Origin: Luteolibacter luteus
Lineage (GTDB): Bacteria; Verrucomicrobiota; Verrucomicrobiia; Verrucomicrobiales; Akkermansiaceae
Reading direction: 5' to 3'
Length of the DNA stretch: 64,000 nucleotides
NCBI RefSeq assembly: GCF_012913485.1
Contig: NZ_CP051774.1
Span: forward strand, 5,704,001-5,768,000
Shown here: positions 55,909 to 64,000 of the stretch, in pieces
How positions within the stretch are numbered: the first letter of the stretch is position 1
Layout: every line of letters begins with the position of its first letter
Position numbers and translations under genes: made by a program
Notes under the pieces: model-generated
Told to the model about the DNA's origin: nothing
What the model saw: the letters and a program-made list of their open reading frames with translations, nothing else
The model's database searches: none

Positions 55909-55936
55909 CCGTTGGAATCATTGATTGCGGGAAGCT

Positions 55937-58900
55937 TCAGGCTTCCTTGCCGCAGCACTGCTTGTACTTCTTGCCCGAGCCACAGGGGCAGGGAGCATTG
56001 CGGCCGAGCTGGTCGATGTCGAAGCTCGGCGGGCGGCGCTTCGGCAGGTTCAGGCGGACTTCGCCACCATCTTCCATGAAGATATTTCCGGAGTTGCCGG
56101 TGGAGGCGACATTGGCGCGGGTGATCGGTTCCGGTTGCTCGGCGCTCTGGAGCTGCTGTGGCATGCCGTGGAGCTGGCGCAGGATCGCTTCGAGGTTGCC
56201 AGCGGAGCGGAAGAGGTTCTGAAGGGCCTCCTGCTCGATGTTCCCCATCAGGGCTTCGAAGAGATCGTAAGCCTCGACCTTGTATTCGACGAGCGGGTCC
56301 TTCTGACCCTGAGCACGAAGATGCACGCCTTCGCGCAGCGCATCCATGTTATAGAGATGAGCCTGCCACTGGCGATCAATCGCGGCGAGCATCATGCGGC
56401 GCTCTTCCATTTCCAGGATTTCCGGAGGCAGGCCGTCGACGCGGGCTTCGTAGGCCTCCTTCACGCGCTTCATCAGGAAGTTCGCGATCTCTTCCGCGGA
56501 CTTGTCGGTGAGATCGAGGTCTTCCTGGGAGAAGCGGATCGGCAGGGTGGAGTTCACCCAGTGGATCAGCTCGTTGTAGTCCGGATTCGATTCGTCGCGA
56601 TCGGCAAGGAAGCTGGAGACCTTGGCGGGGATCACCTTTTCGATGATTTCGTTCACCAGATCCCGCGGTTGCTCGGTGGAGAGCACTTCGTTGCGGTAAC
56701 CGTAAACGACCTCGCGCTGCTTGTTCATCACGTCGTCGAACTCAAGCACCCGCTTGCGCCAGGTGTAGTTGCGTTGCTCGACGCGCTTCTGGGCGGTTTC
56801 GACGGACTTGTTCAGCCAAGAGTGCTCGAGGGCCTCGCCCTCTTGCATGCCGAAGCGTTCCATCATGGAGGTCATGCGATCCGCCGCGGCGAAGTTGCGC
56901 ATGAGGTCGTCTTCGAAGGAGATGTAGAACTGGCTAAGGCCCGGGTCGCCCTGACGGGCGCAACGACCGCGGAGCTGGCGGTCGACGCGGCGGGACTCGT
57001 AGCGTTCCGTGCCGATCACGAAGAGGCCACCCAGTTCGGAGACGCCTTCACCCAGCTTGATGTCGGTGCCGCGGCCTGCCATGTTGGTGGAGACCATCAC
57101 CGCACCGCGCTGGCCGGCATTCGCCACGATCTCGGCTTCCTGCATGTGGAACTTGGCGTTCAACACGGTGTGCGGGATCTTGCTGCGCTTGAGCATGCGC
57201 GAGACGGTCTCGGAGGCTTCCACGGAAGCGGTACCGACGAGGACCGGCTGGCCTTTGCCGTGGGCTTCCTCGATCTTCTTGATCACCGCGTTGTATTTCT
57301 CGCGGCGGGTCTTGAAGACCTGGTCGTTCAGGTCCTGGCGGCGATTCGGCCGGTTGGTCGGAATCGGCAGCACGTCCAGCTTGTAGATATCGGCGAACTC
57401 GGCGGCTTCCGTTTCGGCAGTGCCGGTCATGCCGCCCAGCTTTTCGTAGAGGCGGAAATAGTTCTGGATGGTGATCGTGGCGAAGGTCTGGGTCTCCTTT
57501 TCGATTTCCACGCCTTCCTTGGCCTCGACGGCCTGGTGCAGGCCATCCGACCAGCGGCGGCCTGGCATCTCACGACCGGTGTTTTCATCGACGATGATCA
57601 CCTTGTTATCCTTCACCACATACTGGACGTCCTTTTCATAGACGCAGTAGGCCTTCACCAACTGGGAGATATTGTGCATCTTCTCCGCTTGGGAATCGAG
57701 CCGCTGTTGGGCGGCTTCCTTCCGCTCGGCGCGCTGCTCGTCGGTGAGCCTCGGGTCGTTGTCGATGTCAGCGAAAATGGTGCCGATGTCGGGAAGCACG
57801 AAGGCTTCGGAATCGCCGGGGGCCAGGAACTCGCGGCCCTTCTCCATCAGGTCGGAGTCGTGGCTCTTCTCGTCGATGGTGAAGAAGAGTTCTTCCTTGA
57901 GGTCGAAGAGTTCCTTCTTCTGGGCGTCCTGATAGAAGGAAAGCTCGGTCTTTTCCAGCAGGCGGCGGATATCCGGCTCCTGCATCATGCGCATGAGCTG
58001 GCGGTTACGAGGCTGGCCGAGCTTCACCTTGAAGAGCGCGCGGCCTGCGGCCTCCGTGTCCCCGGCTTCCTGCAGCTTCTTCGCCTCGGACATCAGCTCG
58101 TTGCAGAGCAGGGTCTGCTGGCGAACGATTTGTTCGACCAGCGGCTTGTACTTGTCGAACTGATGGCTGGAGACAGAAGACGGACCGGAAATGATGAGCG
58201 GCGTGCGCGCTTCGTCGATCAGGATCGAGTCCACTTCGTCGATCACGGCGAAGTAGTGGCCGCGCTGCACCTGCTCGTCCTTGGTGGACGCCATGCCGTT
58301 GTCACGCAGGTAGTCGAAGCCGAACTCCGAGTTGGTGCCGTAGGTGATATCGCAAGTGTAGTGCTGGCGGCGGTCCCACGGCGGCATCTGGTTCTGGATA
58401 CAGCCGACGGTCAGGCCGAGGAACTTGTAGAGGGAACCCATCCACTCCGAGTCGCGTCGGGCGAGGTAATCGTTCACGGTGATGACGTGAACGCCGAGGC
58501 CGGTGAGGGCGTTGAGATAGGTCGGGATGGTGGCGACGAGGGTCTTACCTTCACCCGTCATCATTTCCGCGATCATCCCGCGGTGGAGGGCGATACCGCC
58601 GATGAGCTGGACGTCGAAATGGACCATCTCCCACTTCAGCGGCTGCTCGCAGACGCTGATGGTGCTACCACACATGCGGCGCGCGCCATTTTTCACCACG
58701 GCGGCGGCTTCGGGCAGGATTTGCTCGAGGTACTTGGCGCGGGCCGGGATGAATTCCGGCTCCAGATCGTGGAAAGCGGACTTGGCGGCTTCGATCGAAG
58801 CGACCGTCGGCTCGACCTTGGCGGGCACTCCGGAGAATTCCTCACGAAGACGGCCGAATCGCTCGTTCATGTAGGCGGCAGCTTCGGCAAGGCCTTCGGC

Positions 58901-59116
58901 CTCCATGCGCTCGAGCTGCGGCTTGGTGGCCACGTGGAGCTCATGGTAGCGGGAAAGGTGCTCTTTCCACTTGGCGGTCATTTCCCGCAGCTTTTCCTCG
59001 GGCTCCCGTTGCAGGGCCTCTTCGATTTCCTTGATGCGCTCGACGGTCGGGCGAATGCGGCGGATTTCCCGCTGATTCTTATTACCGACGATTTTCTGAA
59101 GGATCCACTTGATCAT
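55937..59116 (-). CDS. secA: Protein translocase ATPase SecA
   Basis: 1059 residues from ATG 59116 (MIKWILQKIVGNKNQREIRR). NBD1 with Walker A TGEGKT and the DEAD-like DVTYGTNSEFGFDYLRDN block, the preprotein cross-linking region, NBD2, scaffold and wing domains, and the C-terminal zinc-binding SEC-C motif (CPCGSGKKYKQCCG). Drives Sec-dependent export at the SecYEG channel. Longer than E. coli SecA (901) through insertions around ~250-430 (LIEQIVRQQTLLCNELMSEAKKLQE...), as commonly seen in PVC bacteria. Ends at a strong terminator. Confidence 0.95.
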   Translation of the reverse strand: MIKWILQKIVGNKNQREIRRIRPTVERIKEIEEALQREPEEKLREMTAKWKEHLSRYHELHVATKPQLERMEAEGLAEAAAYMNERFGRLREEFSGVPAKVEPTVASIEAAKSAFHDLEPEFIPARAKYLEQILPEAAAVVKNGARRMCGSTISVCEQPLKWEMVHFDVQLIGGIALHRGMIAEMMTGEGKTLVATIPTYLNALTGLGVHVITVNDYLARRDSEWMGSLYKFLGLTVGCIQNQMPPWDRRQHYTCDITYGTNSEFGFDYLRDNGMASTKDEQVQRGHYFAVIDEVDSILIDEARTPLIISGPSSVSSHQFDKYKPLVEQIVRQQTLLCNELMSEAKKLQEAGDTEAAGRALFKVKLGQPRNRQLMRMMQEPDIRRLLEKTELSFYQDAQKKELFDLKEELFFTIDEKSHDSDLMEKGREFLAPGDSEAFVLPDIGTIFADIDNDPRLTDEQRAERKEAAQQRLDSQAEKMHNISQLVKAYCVYEKDVQYVVKDNKVIIVDENTGREMPGRRWSDGLHQAVEAKEGVEIEKETQTFATITIQNYFRLYEKLGGMTGTAETEAAEFADIYKLDVLPIPTNRPNRRQDLNDQVFKTRREKYNAVIKKIEEAHGKGQPVLVGTASVEASETVSRMLKRSKIPHTVLNAKFHMQEAEIVANAGQRGAVMVSTNMAGRGTDIKLGEGVSELGGLFVIGTERYESRRVDRQLRGRCARQGDPGLSQFYISFEDDLMRNFAAADRMTSMMERFGMQEGEALEHSWLNKSVETAQKRVEQRNYTWRKRVLEFDDVMNKQREVVYGYRNEVLSTEQPRDLVNEIIEKVIPAKVSSFLADRDESNPDYNELIHWVNSTLPIRFSQEDLDLTDKSAEEIANFLMKRVKEAYEARVDGLPPEILEMEERRMMLAAIDRQWQAHLYNMDALREGVHLRAQGQKDPLVEYKVEAYDLFEALMGNIEQEALQNLFRSAGNLEAILRQLHGMPQQLQSAEQPEPITRANVASTGNSGNIFMEDGGEVRLNLPKRRPPSFDIDQLGRNAPCPCGSGKKYKQCCGKEA

Positions 59117-59480
59117 TTGAAGGGCAGGTAGGAGCCGGTGTTGCAGCCGGGGCGCACGCAATACACGCGGATTCGCGACTGTGCAAGCGGCACGGCAGGG
59201 TGCTTTTGCCCGCTTTTGTAGCGACTGTAGGGGAAAGCATTACCATGTGTGTCATCGGGTCGACTGAAAAGAGCGGGAGGAGGCCATAAAACGGCAGCTG
59301 CGATCTTTGGTGATGAGCGAATTCGGGCGATCTCGAGCCCAATTTGACTGTGGAGCATCCGGCTTGCTTGAAGAATCCGGGGAGACAGCGCCCAAACTGT
59401 GAATCGCCTTGGAATAATATCTCAGGACTGCCCCTTGGTTGATGCGGGGATGACGGGGGTATCTAGCTGGTCGTCAGCCA
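59117..59480. other. Non-coding interval upstream of secA
   Basis: No protein or RNA gene recognised. It holds the minus-strand secA promoter (not resolved) and the 3' side of the small membrane-protein gene. The short frames on either strand lack any family resemblance. Confidence 0.4.
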
Positions 59481-61589: not shown

Positions 61590-61610
61590 GGAGCAGACAC
61601 TGCCTGCTCC
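61590..61610. terminator. Bidirectional hairpin between convergent genes
   Basis: GGAGCAG and CTGCTCC separated by a seven-base loop. It overlaps the stop codon of the metal-ABC permease gene. No T tract. Confidence 0.4.
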
Positions 61611-62524
61611 TAGAGGTTCGGTTCGGGGGCTTCGAGCTTTCCGAAGCGGCGGGTGAGCAGGCCTTCCCGGGGTGCAAAAATCCATGCGAGGAGGAAGATC
61701 AGACCTGCGGCGAAGGCCATCATGCCCGAGGTGGTGGTGCTTTCAAAGCCGACCAAGGGTGGCAAGATGATGGCTCCGAGGTGGCCAAGAACTGCGGAGG
61801 CTGCGGCGAGCACAACGCCGAGCAAGAGCATCGGCAGCAGGTGGCGGGTCAGCAACTGGGCGGTTGCGGCAGGGACGATCAGCATCGCGATCACGATGAT
61901 GCTGCCGACCGATTCGAAGGCGGCGACGGTGGTCACCGCGACCATGGTCATCAGGAGGTAGTGGAGGAAAGAGGAGGAGAATCCGAGAGTTTCGGCCAAA
62001 GCGGGATCGAAGGCGCTCAATTTTAGCTCCTTGTAGAGTAGGGCGATGATTCCGGCATTGAAGAGCAGGACGCCGCCATTCACTGCCGCGGCACGGGGCA
62101 ATTCGAAGGAGCCGATCTTTACCGTATCGAGCGGGGTGAACTCGATTGCCCCGTAGAGCACGCAACCGGGATCGAGGTCCACGTGGTTGGCGGCCTGCAC
62201 GATCAGCACCAGGCCGATCGCGAAGAGGGTGGTGAAGACCACACCCATGGCGGCGCCACGGTCGACATTGGCAAAGCGGCCGATCCATTGAGTGAAGATT
62301 GCCGTGAGTACTCCGGTGATCGCCGCGCCGAGGAACATCGGGAGGCTGGCGCGGCTGCCGCCGACGAGGAAGGCGATGGCCAAGCCGGGAAGCACGGCAT
62401 GGCTGATGGCATCTCCCATCATGCTCATTTTCCGCAGCACGAGGAAGCAGCCCGGCAGGGCGCAAGCCATCGCGCAGAGCACGCCGGTGACCACGATCCA
62501 GGTGTCGATGGAAGTCCAGTTCAC
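61610..62524 (-). CDS. Metal ABC transporter permease (ABC-3 family, YtgD/MntD-like)
   Basis: 304 residues from a GTG start that overlaps the upstream permease stop by four bases. Eight or nine TM helices, with the ABC-3 hallmark sequence DAISHAVLPGLAIAFLVGG near residue 40 and IVIAMLIVPAATAQLLT near the middle. It forms the membrane channel for Mn/Zn/Fe uptake with the preceding permease. Last gene of the unit inside the window. Confidence 0.92.
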   Translation of the reverse strand: MNWTSIDTWIVVTGVLCAMACALPGCFLVLRKMSMMGDAISHAVLPGLAIAFLVGGSRASLPMFLGAAITGVLTAIFTQWIGRFANVDRGAAMGVVFTTLFAIGLVLIVQAANHVDLDPGCVLYGAIEFTPLDTVKIGSFELPRAAAVNGGVLLFNAGIIALLYKELKLSAFDPALAETLGFSSSFLHYLLMTMVAVTTVAAFESVGSIIVIAMLIVPAATAQLLTRHLLPMLLLGVVLAAASAVLGHLGAIILPPLVGFESTTTSGMMAFAAGLIFLLAWIFAPREGLLTRRFGKLEAPEPNL

Positions 62525-63843
62525 AAGCGGTGGGGGCTCGCCGGCACCTGGGTGCGGCTGGCTAGTTCGGTTTCGAGTTCGCGGACCATTTCAGATCCCA
62601 GGATGTGCTCCACGAGATCGGCATCCCGATCGACATGGCTGGGGGCGATATCGGCGTGGCGGATCAGATAGAGTTCCCAGAGGCGGTGGTTCCGGGTGAT
62701 GCGGGCGGCCTCGCCGAAGCCGGACTCGGAGAGGTGAATCATGCTCCGATCCGTGGGGGCTTCGAGATGATCTTCCTTGCGGGCGTGGGAGAGCTCGCGG
62801 GCAAGCTGGTGCGGTGTCCAACTGCGGTGCTCCAGCAACTCGGTGCGGGAGACGGGATCATTCACTGGAGGCCGTGATCTCGACTCCAGGATTTCGTAGG
62901 CCGCACGCAGCAGGTGCTGGCGGCCGACGCGGCGCTGGAGACGACGTTGATCGAGCCACCGCGGCAGCACGCCGCGGGTGGTGCCGAAGATCATGCTGAC
63001 GGTGAAAATGGAGGCGGCGGTAAGCACGATCAGCGCGCCCGCGGGAAGGTCGGTAAGCAAGGCGCTGATCGAGGCACCGAGCCAGCCGCTGATGCCGCCA
63101 ATCACTGCGGAGAGGATGAGCATCACGGGCAGGCGCTCCGTCCAGAAGCGTGCTGCAGCCGCAGGGATGATCAGGAAAGCGATCACCAGGATGAGGCCGA
63201 CGGCTTGCAAGCCGACGACGGTGACCGCGGTGACGAGAGCCAGCAGGATGCCGTCTAACAAAAGCACGGGCCATCCTTCCGAAGCTGCGAAGGCCTGATC
63301 GAAGCAAAGCACGGTAAGCTCCTTGATCAGCAGGATTACCGCAACGGCCGAGAGCACGGAGACCACAGCGATAACGATGAAGTCACCGGAGACCATGGAG
63401 GCCGTCTTGCCATAGATGAAGGATTCCAAGCCCGCCGCGTTTGGAAGACTCTGCACCATTCGCAGGATGGCGGTACCGGCGCCGAAGAAGACACTCAGTA
63501 CGAAGCCCATCGCCACGTCATCGCGGAGCCGGGTGGTGCGGATGATCGCCAGCATGACCGCCACGCCAGCCAGACCGGAAAGGGTGGCCCCGGTGAGCAG
63601 GATGCCGAGGCTTTTTCCTCCGCCGGCCATGGAGGTGCCGAGGGCGAAGGCGATGCCGATGCCCGGCAGCGTGGCATGGGAAAGGACATCGCCCATCAGC
63701 GAGCGCTTCCGCAGCAGCAAGAAGGCGCCGACCAATCCGGCACCGATGCCGAGCAGGGTGGTCGCGAGAACGACGAGCCGGGTGTTGTAGCTTTCCAGCA
63801 TCAGCACCTCGCGGAGTTCGTCGATGGATGGCAGTCCGCTCAT
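62521..63843 (-). CDS. Metal ABC transporter permease fused to a DtxR/MntR-like repressor domain (YtgCR-like)
   Basis: 440 residues. N-terminal ABC-3 permease (~20-290; DVLSHATLPGIGIAFALG, LILVIAFLIIPAAAARFW). After a basic linker (~297-310), a winged helix (~310-372; SWTPHQLARELSHARKEDHL) and a DtxR dimerisation/metal domain (~373-425; GFGEAARITRNHRLWELYLI and VDRDADLVEHILGSEMV) follow. In Chlamydia the same fusion, YtgCR, is cleaved to release an iron-responsive repressor of its operon. Here it is flanked by the ATPase (six bases upstream) and the second permease, as in ytgB-ytgCR-ytgD. Confidence 0.9.
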   Translation of the reverse strand: MSGLPSIDELREVLMLESYNTRLVVLATTLLGIGAGLVGAFLLLRKRSLMGDVLSHATLPGIGIAFALGTSMAGGGKSLGILLTGATLSGLAGVAVMLAIIRTTRLRDDVAMGFVLSVFFGAGTAILRMVQSLPNAAGLESFIYGKTASMVSGDFIVIAVVSVLSAVAVILLIKELTVLCFDQAFAASEGWPVLLLDGILLALVTAVTVVGLQAVGLILVIAFLIIPAAAARFWTERLPVMLILSAVIGGISGWLGASISALLTDLPAGALIVLTAASIFTVSMIFGTTRGVLPRWLDQRRLQRRVGRQHLLRAAYEILESRSRPPVNDPVSRTELLEHRSWTPHQLARELSHARKEDHLEAPTDRSMIHLSESGFGEAARITRNHRLWELYLIRHADIAPSHVDRDADLVEHILGSEMVRELETELASRTQVPASPHRL

Positions 63844-63849
63844 GATGGC

Positions 63850-64000
63850 TCAGCGACGGCGAATGGCTTCGGCAGCATGGTCCAGCAAGGACAGGCGGCC
63901 ACCGTAGGTTTTCTTCAGGTTTTCGTCGGTGAAGACTTCATCAGTCGGGCCGGACGCCACGACGCGCATGTTCAGCATCACGACCCAATCGAAGTATTGG
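63850..64000 (-). CDS. Metal ABC transporter ATPase, C-terminal end (5' part beyond the window)
   Basis: The last 49 codons are visible, reading QYFDWVVMLNMRVVASGPTD...VFTDENLKKTYGG, the usual C-terminal region of MntB/ZnuC/YtgB ATPases (loop after the H-loop and the C-terminal helix). It ends six bases before the permease-DtxR start. The Walker motifs lie outside the window. Confidence 0.8.
   Translation of the reverse strand, partial: QYFDWVVMLNMRVVASGPTDEVFTDENLKKTYGGRLSLLDHAAEAIRRR

Follow-up and report, generated by a model that had tools for sequence, protein, structure and literature searches.

A gene of Luteolibacter luteus joins an ABC-3 permease and a DtxR-like domain in one polypeptide, and it raises the question of what a transcription-factor fold does at the end of a membrane transporter. 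Among proteins of this architecture, the one that has been studied is YtgCR of Chlamydia, described as a permease from which a repressor is released. Cleavage, DNA binding and repression have all been reported for the chlamydial YtgR (PMC5599777, PMC7755916, PMC6504234), and it is reported to be the sole identified iron-dependent regulator of Chlamydia. A previous reading of the window, that is, of the whole 64,000-nucleotide stretch of DNA analysed here, had been made from the sequence only; it took the gene as a sign that the fusion is older than chlamydial parasitism and that proteolytic release of a repressor could be a mechanism shared by PVC bacteria. We analysed the gene, its operon, its relatives and the operators upstream of them.

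The fusion gene, its operon and its relatives

The fusion is encoded by a 440-codon open reading frame with no internal stop (Table 1). In Pfam, residues 373-431 matched Fe_dep_repr_C (E 3.4e-11, exceeding the curated cut-off), and the winged helix gave no PF01325 match even at E values up to 1. Despite this lack of detection, a winged helix is present in an AlphaFold2 model that was built with 65 aligned fusions and has a mean pLDDT of 90. Residues 303-440 of the model resemble domains 1-2 of DtxR (Z 16, rmsd 2.1, 128 residues) and residues 9-295 resemble the PsaBC permease (Z 35), and the DtxR-like module spans about residues 303-431. The open frame, Pfam and the model thus agree with the sequence-only reading in its description of one uninterrupted ABC-3 permease, winged helix and DtxR dimerisation domain, the winged helix being seen in the model only. 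A full-length fusion was found in about half of the 56 genomes having a match, and this genome and its relatives together supplied 33 fusions of the same architecture, counting the present one. Together with the single-contig genome and the confident model, these homologues rule out an assembly artefact or a sequencing frameshift, the latter having been named as a possible source of the fusion. The permease-DtxR fusion is therefore genuine in this verrucomicrobial genome, which falls in the same family group as Persicirhabdus sediminis.

Table 1 Features of the fusion gene and its surroundings (window positions unless prefixed C1)
Feature	Position	Strand	Remarks
Permease-DtxR fusion gene	62521..63843	(-)	ORF, 440 aa; full-length homologues exist
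ABC-3 permease domain, residues 22-286	62986..63780	(-)	PF00950, E 5.5e-57; PsaBC fold, Z 35
Connection from last membrane helix to helix 1 of DtxR-like domain, residues 287-310	62914..62985	(-)	constant length in 159/159 fusions
Degenerate winged helix-turn-helix half, residues 303-372, overlapping the connecting helix	62728..62937	(-)	fold match; without PF01325
Metal-binding and dimerisation half, residues 373-431	62551..62727	(-)	PF02742; ligand positions H386, E390, D405, D409, E412, H413
Second ABC-3 permease, unfused	61610..62524	(-)	GTG start overlaps the stop codon of the fusion
ATPase gene, 3' end in window	63850..64000; whole gene C1:5767850-5768620	(-)	reaches past the window
Candidate operator, 16-bp palindrome	C1:5770425-5770440		outside the window, between the operon and the divergent stand-alone DtxR
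Divergent stand-alone DtxR	about C1:5770504-5771199, or from 5770537 if an internal ATG is the start		PF01325, PF02742 and FeoA

The gene belongs to an ABC importer operon of the iron/manganese type, with the order binding protein, ATPase, permease, permease, in which the fusion is the first permease and the ATPase gene lies only a few bases upstream of it. The operon's first genes, upstream of the ATPase gene and beyond the window, encode a ZnuA-type binding protein and a protein of the Phenol_MetA_deg family that resembles outer-membrane proteins. The latter (L004:5633-6424), which lies inside the importer operon and is also found with many unfused relatives, is perhaps an outer-membrane metal channel. 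The genome, one contig of 6.41 Mb, contains three DtxR-type genes, namely the fusion, the divergent FeoA-type regulator and a short MntR elsewhere, so that the fused domain, accompanied by two stand-alone DtxR/MntR genes, is not its sole regulator of this family. Elsewhere in the window, a 1068-codon frame (55925-59131, plus strand) lies antisense to a SecA-like gene (55937-59161, minus strand) and is almost certainly a shadow frame of coding DNA that is rich in GC.

A scan with one genome per species yielded at least 453 confirmed relatives, the best 80 of which came mainly from Verrucomicrobiota and also from Sumerlaeota, Poribacteria, Bacteroidota (Pontibacter) and one Deltaproteobacterium bin; in plasmid records, the best matches were unfused permeases only. 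We compiled 143 non-redundant fusion loci with their neighbours; like the trees, this set was composed without chlamydial or planctomycete sequences. In all 143 loci, the first of the permeases that follow the ATPase carries the domain, and in 16 of them the second does too. Such doubly fused operons (L222-L235, L178 and L183; for example L222:6200-8900 and L178:5116-7829) often have a divergent stand-alone DtxR as well, giving three DtxR modules per locus. In addition, contig L122 (CALQJI020000132.1), labelled Klebsiella pneumoniae, carries an operon resembling the verrucomicrobial loci and is probably a metagenome bin under the wrong name.

In a tree of 94 permeases, none of them from Chlamydia, all fused first permeases formed one clade (SH-aLRT 99), which includes Bacteroidota, Sumerlaeota and a Deltaproteobacterium/Myxococcota bin beside Verrucomicrobiota. 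In a tree of the DtxR part, based on a short alignment that also lacked Chlamydia, the fused domains of first and second permeases likewise formed one clade (99) to the exclusion of every stand-alone DtxR/MntR; this clade additionally holds Poribacteria. The fusions are therefore not confined to PVC bacteria. Nor is a fusion outside Chlamydia new in itself, since a 2017 review (PMC5599777) already credits Thompson et al. 2012 with permease-repressor fusions in 11 phyla. A fusion older than chlamydial parasitism is compatible with our data, but its age relative to that parasitism cannot be read from one genome, because the fusions spread past PVC and transfer between phyla is possible.

The metal site, the DNA-reading half and the connection

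The fused domain retains the DtxR ligands H79, E83, E105 and H106 as H386, E390, E412 and H413, and it has D405 in place of H98, D409 in place of C102 and H310 in place of M10. The swapped residues, His, Asp and Asp at DtxR positions 10, 98 and 102, are potential ligands and are conserved in the clade. Among the 138 first-permease fusions of the two main groups, none departs from DtxR at positions 79, 83, 105 and 106, and in group A, which includes this protein, positions 98 and 102 are Asp and position 10 is mostly His. According to the titles of the structure matches, DtxR C102D was used in solved metal-bound structures, which makes Asp at position 102 a plausible ligand. PF02742 matched 65 of 65 fusions, and the fused domains are further marked by Trp389 and, nearly always, His403. 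The C-terminal half thus keeps its ligand positions, some of them substituted, where the sequence-only reading had allowed for their absence, and the fused domain probably binds metal. In four members of a small third group (L059, L068, L241 and L258), Glu replaces H106, and the sensor of this clade may be metal-blind or altered.

In contrast to the conserved metal ligands, the DNA-reading half is degenerate. PF01325 matched none of the 65 fusions. When an HTH profile was made from half of the stand-alone HTHs, the held-out half scored 51-106 bits, whereas group A fusions had a median of 0.7 and this protein scored -0.8. In genomes having both kinds of domain, identity in the recognition helix was 0.22 for fused against 0.49 for stand-alone domains, and identity in the metal site was 0.77 against 0.75. 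The pN/pS values of group A fusions were 0.67 in the HTH half and 0.17 in the metal half (0.50 and 0.27 in stand-alones), values of which the contrast alone is meaningful as synonymous sites are near saturation. The charge of the HTH half was an uninformative proxy for DNA binding, some stand-alones being acidic too. In two fusions (L065 and L067) the HTH half is short by about nine residues in the turn/recognition region, and the metal half is intact.

A spacing of 24 residues separates helix 1 of the domain from the last membrane helix in every first permease (143 of 143) and every second permease that carries the domain (16 of 16), unlike the loops within the fused domain, which differ in length. 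For this protein, the connection was modelled by AlphaFold2 as a helix at high pLDDT. From its constant length and its predicted structure, it looks like a fixed mechanical coupling, not a cleavable linker.

Operator type and the stand-alone regulators

The sequence-only reading had proposed a search for an operator upstream of the importer genes, and a single palindrome was found there, beside the stand-alone DtxR. The palindrome TTTTGACTATTCAAAA is present at a single place in the 6.41-Mb genome, in the region that separates the operon from the stand-alone DtxR, and WTTTGANNNNTCAAAW occurs exactly once, at C1:5770425-5770440 in the same intergenic region. Two palindromes were found upstream of importer operons, motif I (TTTGA-N4-TCAAA) and motif II (TTAGC-N4-GCTAA). 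Motif I, counted at one mismatch or fewer, was present at 25 of 32 operons adjoining a FeoA/SH3-type DtxR and at 0 of 19 adjoining a short MntR, whereas motif II was present at 0 of 32 and 7 of 19, respectively; the background in random windows was 1.8% for motif I and 0.6% for motif II. The same split was seen for motif I inside fused group A (10/14 with FeoA-type regulators vs 0/6 with MntR, p 0.011) and inside fused group B (15/18 vs 0/13, p 3e-6), and the fused group had no effect on operator type (p 0.67); these p-values serve as a guide only, since the loci share ancestry, regulator type partly tracks lineage and the loci are thus not independent.

For operons with a motif but no adjoining regulator, the rest of the genome was searched for the regulator, whose type was assigned from its score and frame length. 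Operator and regulator matched in all 42 genomes: a FeoA-type DtxR accompanied motif I in each of 16, and short MntR only accompanied motif II in each of 26. Unfused importers of relatives carried motif II exactly in five of eight cases and with one mismatch in two more. In L. luteus, which has a short MntR as its second stand-alone regulator, motif II had no exact match in the 6.41-Mb genome. Four fusion-bearing drafts (G001, G433, G441 and G446) have the operator and no detected stand-alone DtxR, which reflects either assembly gaps or a fused domain acting as sole regulator. By association, our data support the conclusion that operator type pairs with the stand-alone regulator and not with the fused domain. 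The operator split inside both fused groups is hard to reconcile with the fused domain as the operator reader, and this pairing supports the view that the fused domain is not the repressor of this operon.

Readings of the fused domain and comparison with known systems

We consider it somewhat probable that the fused domain is an in-place metal-sensing regulator of the transporter, and that the separate DtxR controls transcription of the operon. The divergent stand-alone DtxR, to judge from the association of operator and regulator, would bind the single 16-bp palindrome and repress the operon, and the fused domain would stay attached to the transporter as a cytosolic metal sensor. Cytosolic metal filling the DtxR-type site would shift dimer or domain contacts, and import would slow by trans-inhibition. 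Where both permeases carry the domain, it perhaps works as a dimer. In favour of in-place sensing are the tracking of the stand-alone regulator by operator type in groups A and B each, the presence of motif II at unfused importers, the conserved metal ligands beside a degenerate and fast-evolving DNA-reading half, the constant helical spacing, and the 16 loci with both permeases fused, as an in-place DtxR dimer would require. Against it stand the cleavage, DNA binding and repression reported for the homologous chlamydial domain, a winged-helix fold that the model retains and on which some purifying constraint acts, the four drafts with an operator and no detected stand-alone DtxR, and the partial dependence of regulator type on lineage. 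In this genome, moreover, one of the two permeases carries the domain, so that an intramolecular dimer is not obvious.

A Chlamydia-like course, in which proteolysis frees the C-terminal domain to repress its own operon in an iron-dependent manner, would accord with the ytgABCD-like architecture and gene order, the chlamydial precedent, the retention of most metal ligands and the predicted fold. It seems unlikely here, as the operon has a dedicated stand-alone DtxR which operator type tracks, the recognition helix is unconserved yet the operators are conserved, this protein scores below zero on the HTH profile, and the spacing is invariant, with no flexible linker. Repressor release as a PVC-wide mechanism consequently finds no support at this locus, and the proposed C-terminal fragment of about 15 kDa is at odds with the chlamydial fragments of 28-30 kDa (PMC5599777). 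The 2017 review also raised the possibility, for full-length YtgC, that an uncut protein binds its operator from the membrane (PMC5599777); the degenerate HTH and the operator pairing weigh against this as well, and we regard it as most improbable. Alternatively, the fused domain might tune the stand-alone repressor by forming heterodimers or competing for metal at the membrane, with importer abundance setting repression. The dimerisation half is the best conserved part, and a stand-alone DtxR occurs in nearly all fusion genomes examined (exceptions G001, G043, G052 and G053); however, the fused domains are phylogenetically distinct from the stand-alone ones and occur with two very different stand-alone types, which argues against a conserved hetero-interface, so that we think such tuning quite unlikely. 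The degenerate HTH half and the small clade that lost H106 would fit a relic, acquired once and kept as a structural appendage without sensing, but the near-invariant metal ligands across several phyla and the low pN/pS of the metal half make this very unlikely.

More generally, we give a little under an even chance to a large multi-phylum family of metal importers in which a DtxR-derived domain gave up DNA reading and became a rigidly coupled cytosolic metal sensor, borne by one or both permeases, that feeds back directly on transport; the cleavable repressor of Chlamydia would then be a special or derived use after loss of the stand-alone regulator. If the free-living members, which are the commoner ones, sense in place, a transcription-factor fold would have been recruited to regulate a transporter, metal import would be subject to feedback after translation as well as at transcription, and the mechanism known from Chlamydia would have to be re-examined as a special case. 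Our literature search found no studied permease-DtxR fusion from outside Chlamydia, nor, as far as we found, has there been any description of the contrast between metal site and HTH, of the constant connection, of operons with two fused permeases or of the pairing between operator and regulator. These features are a testable case for a variant function, and given the operator pairing the question can be addressed directly in culturable Verrucomicrobiota or Bacteroidota.

Compared with Chlamydia, the gene order of binding protein, ATPase, fusion and permease is that of the ytgABCD operon. The protein resembles YtgCR (CT069), here known by its description and not its sequence, in having a C-terminal DtxR-like domain on the ABC-3 permease that comes first after the ATPase, and differs from that description in having Asp at the H98 and C102 positions. 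Unlike in Chlamydia, a stand-alone DtxR adjoins the operon. The chlamydial tryptophan attenuator motif (WWW) is absent from this fusion and was found in one of 167 fused open frames (L067). The fused domain is like DtxR, MntR and SloR repressors in its fold and in the main metal-ligand positions of its C-terminal half, and unlike them in that its DNA-binding half is unrecognisable by sequence, it lacks FeoA/SH3, it is fused to a membrane protein and it has Trp389 and His403. The permease part shares with PsaBC, TroCD and MntB permeases the fold and an operon with a ZnuA-type binding protein and an ATPase, and differs from them by the additional C-terminal 150 residues. In MetNI, with its C2 domain, and in ModBC, importer regulatory domains of other folds are found on the ATPase subunit; by analogy, a cytosolic ligand may feed back on transport through the domain fused to this permease.
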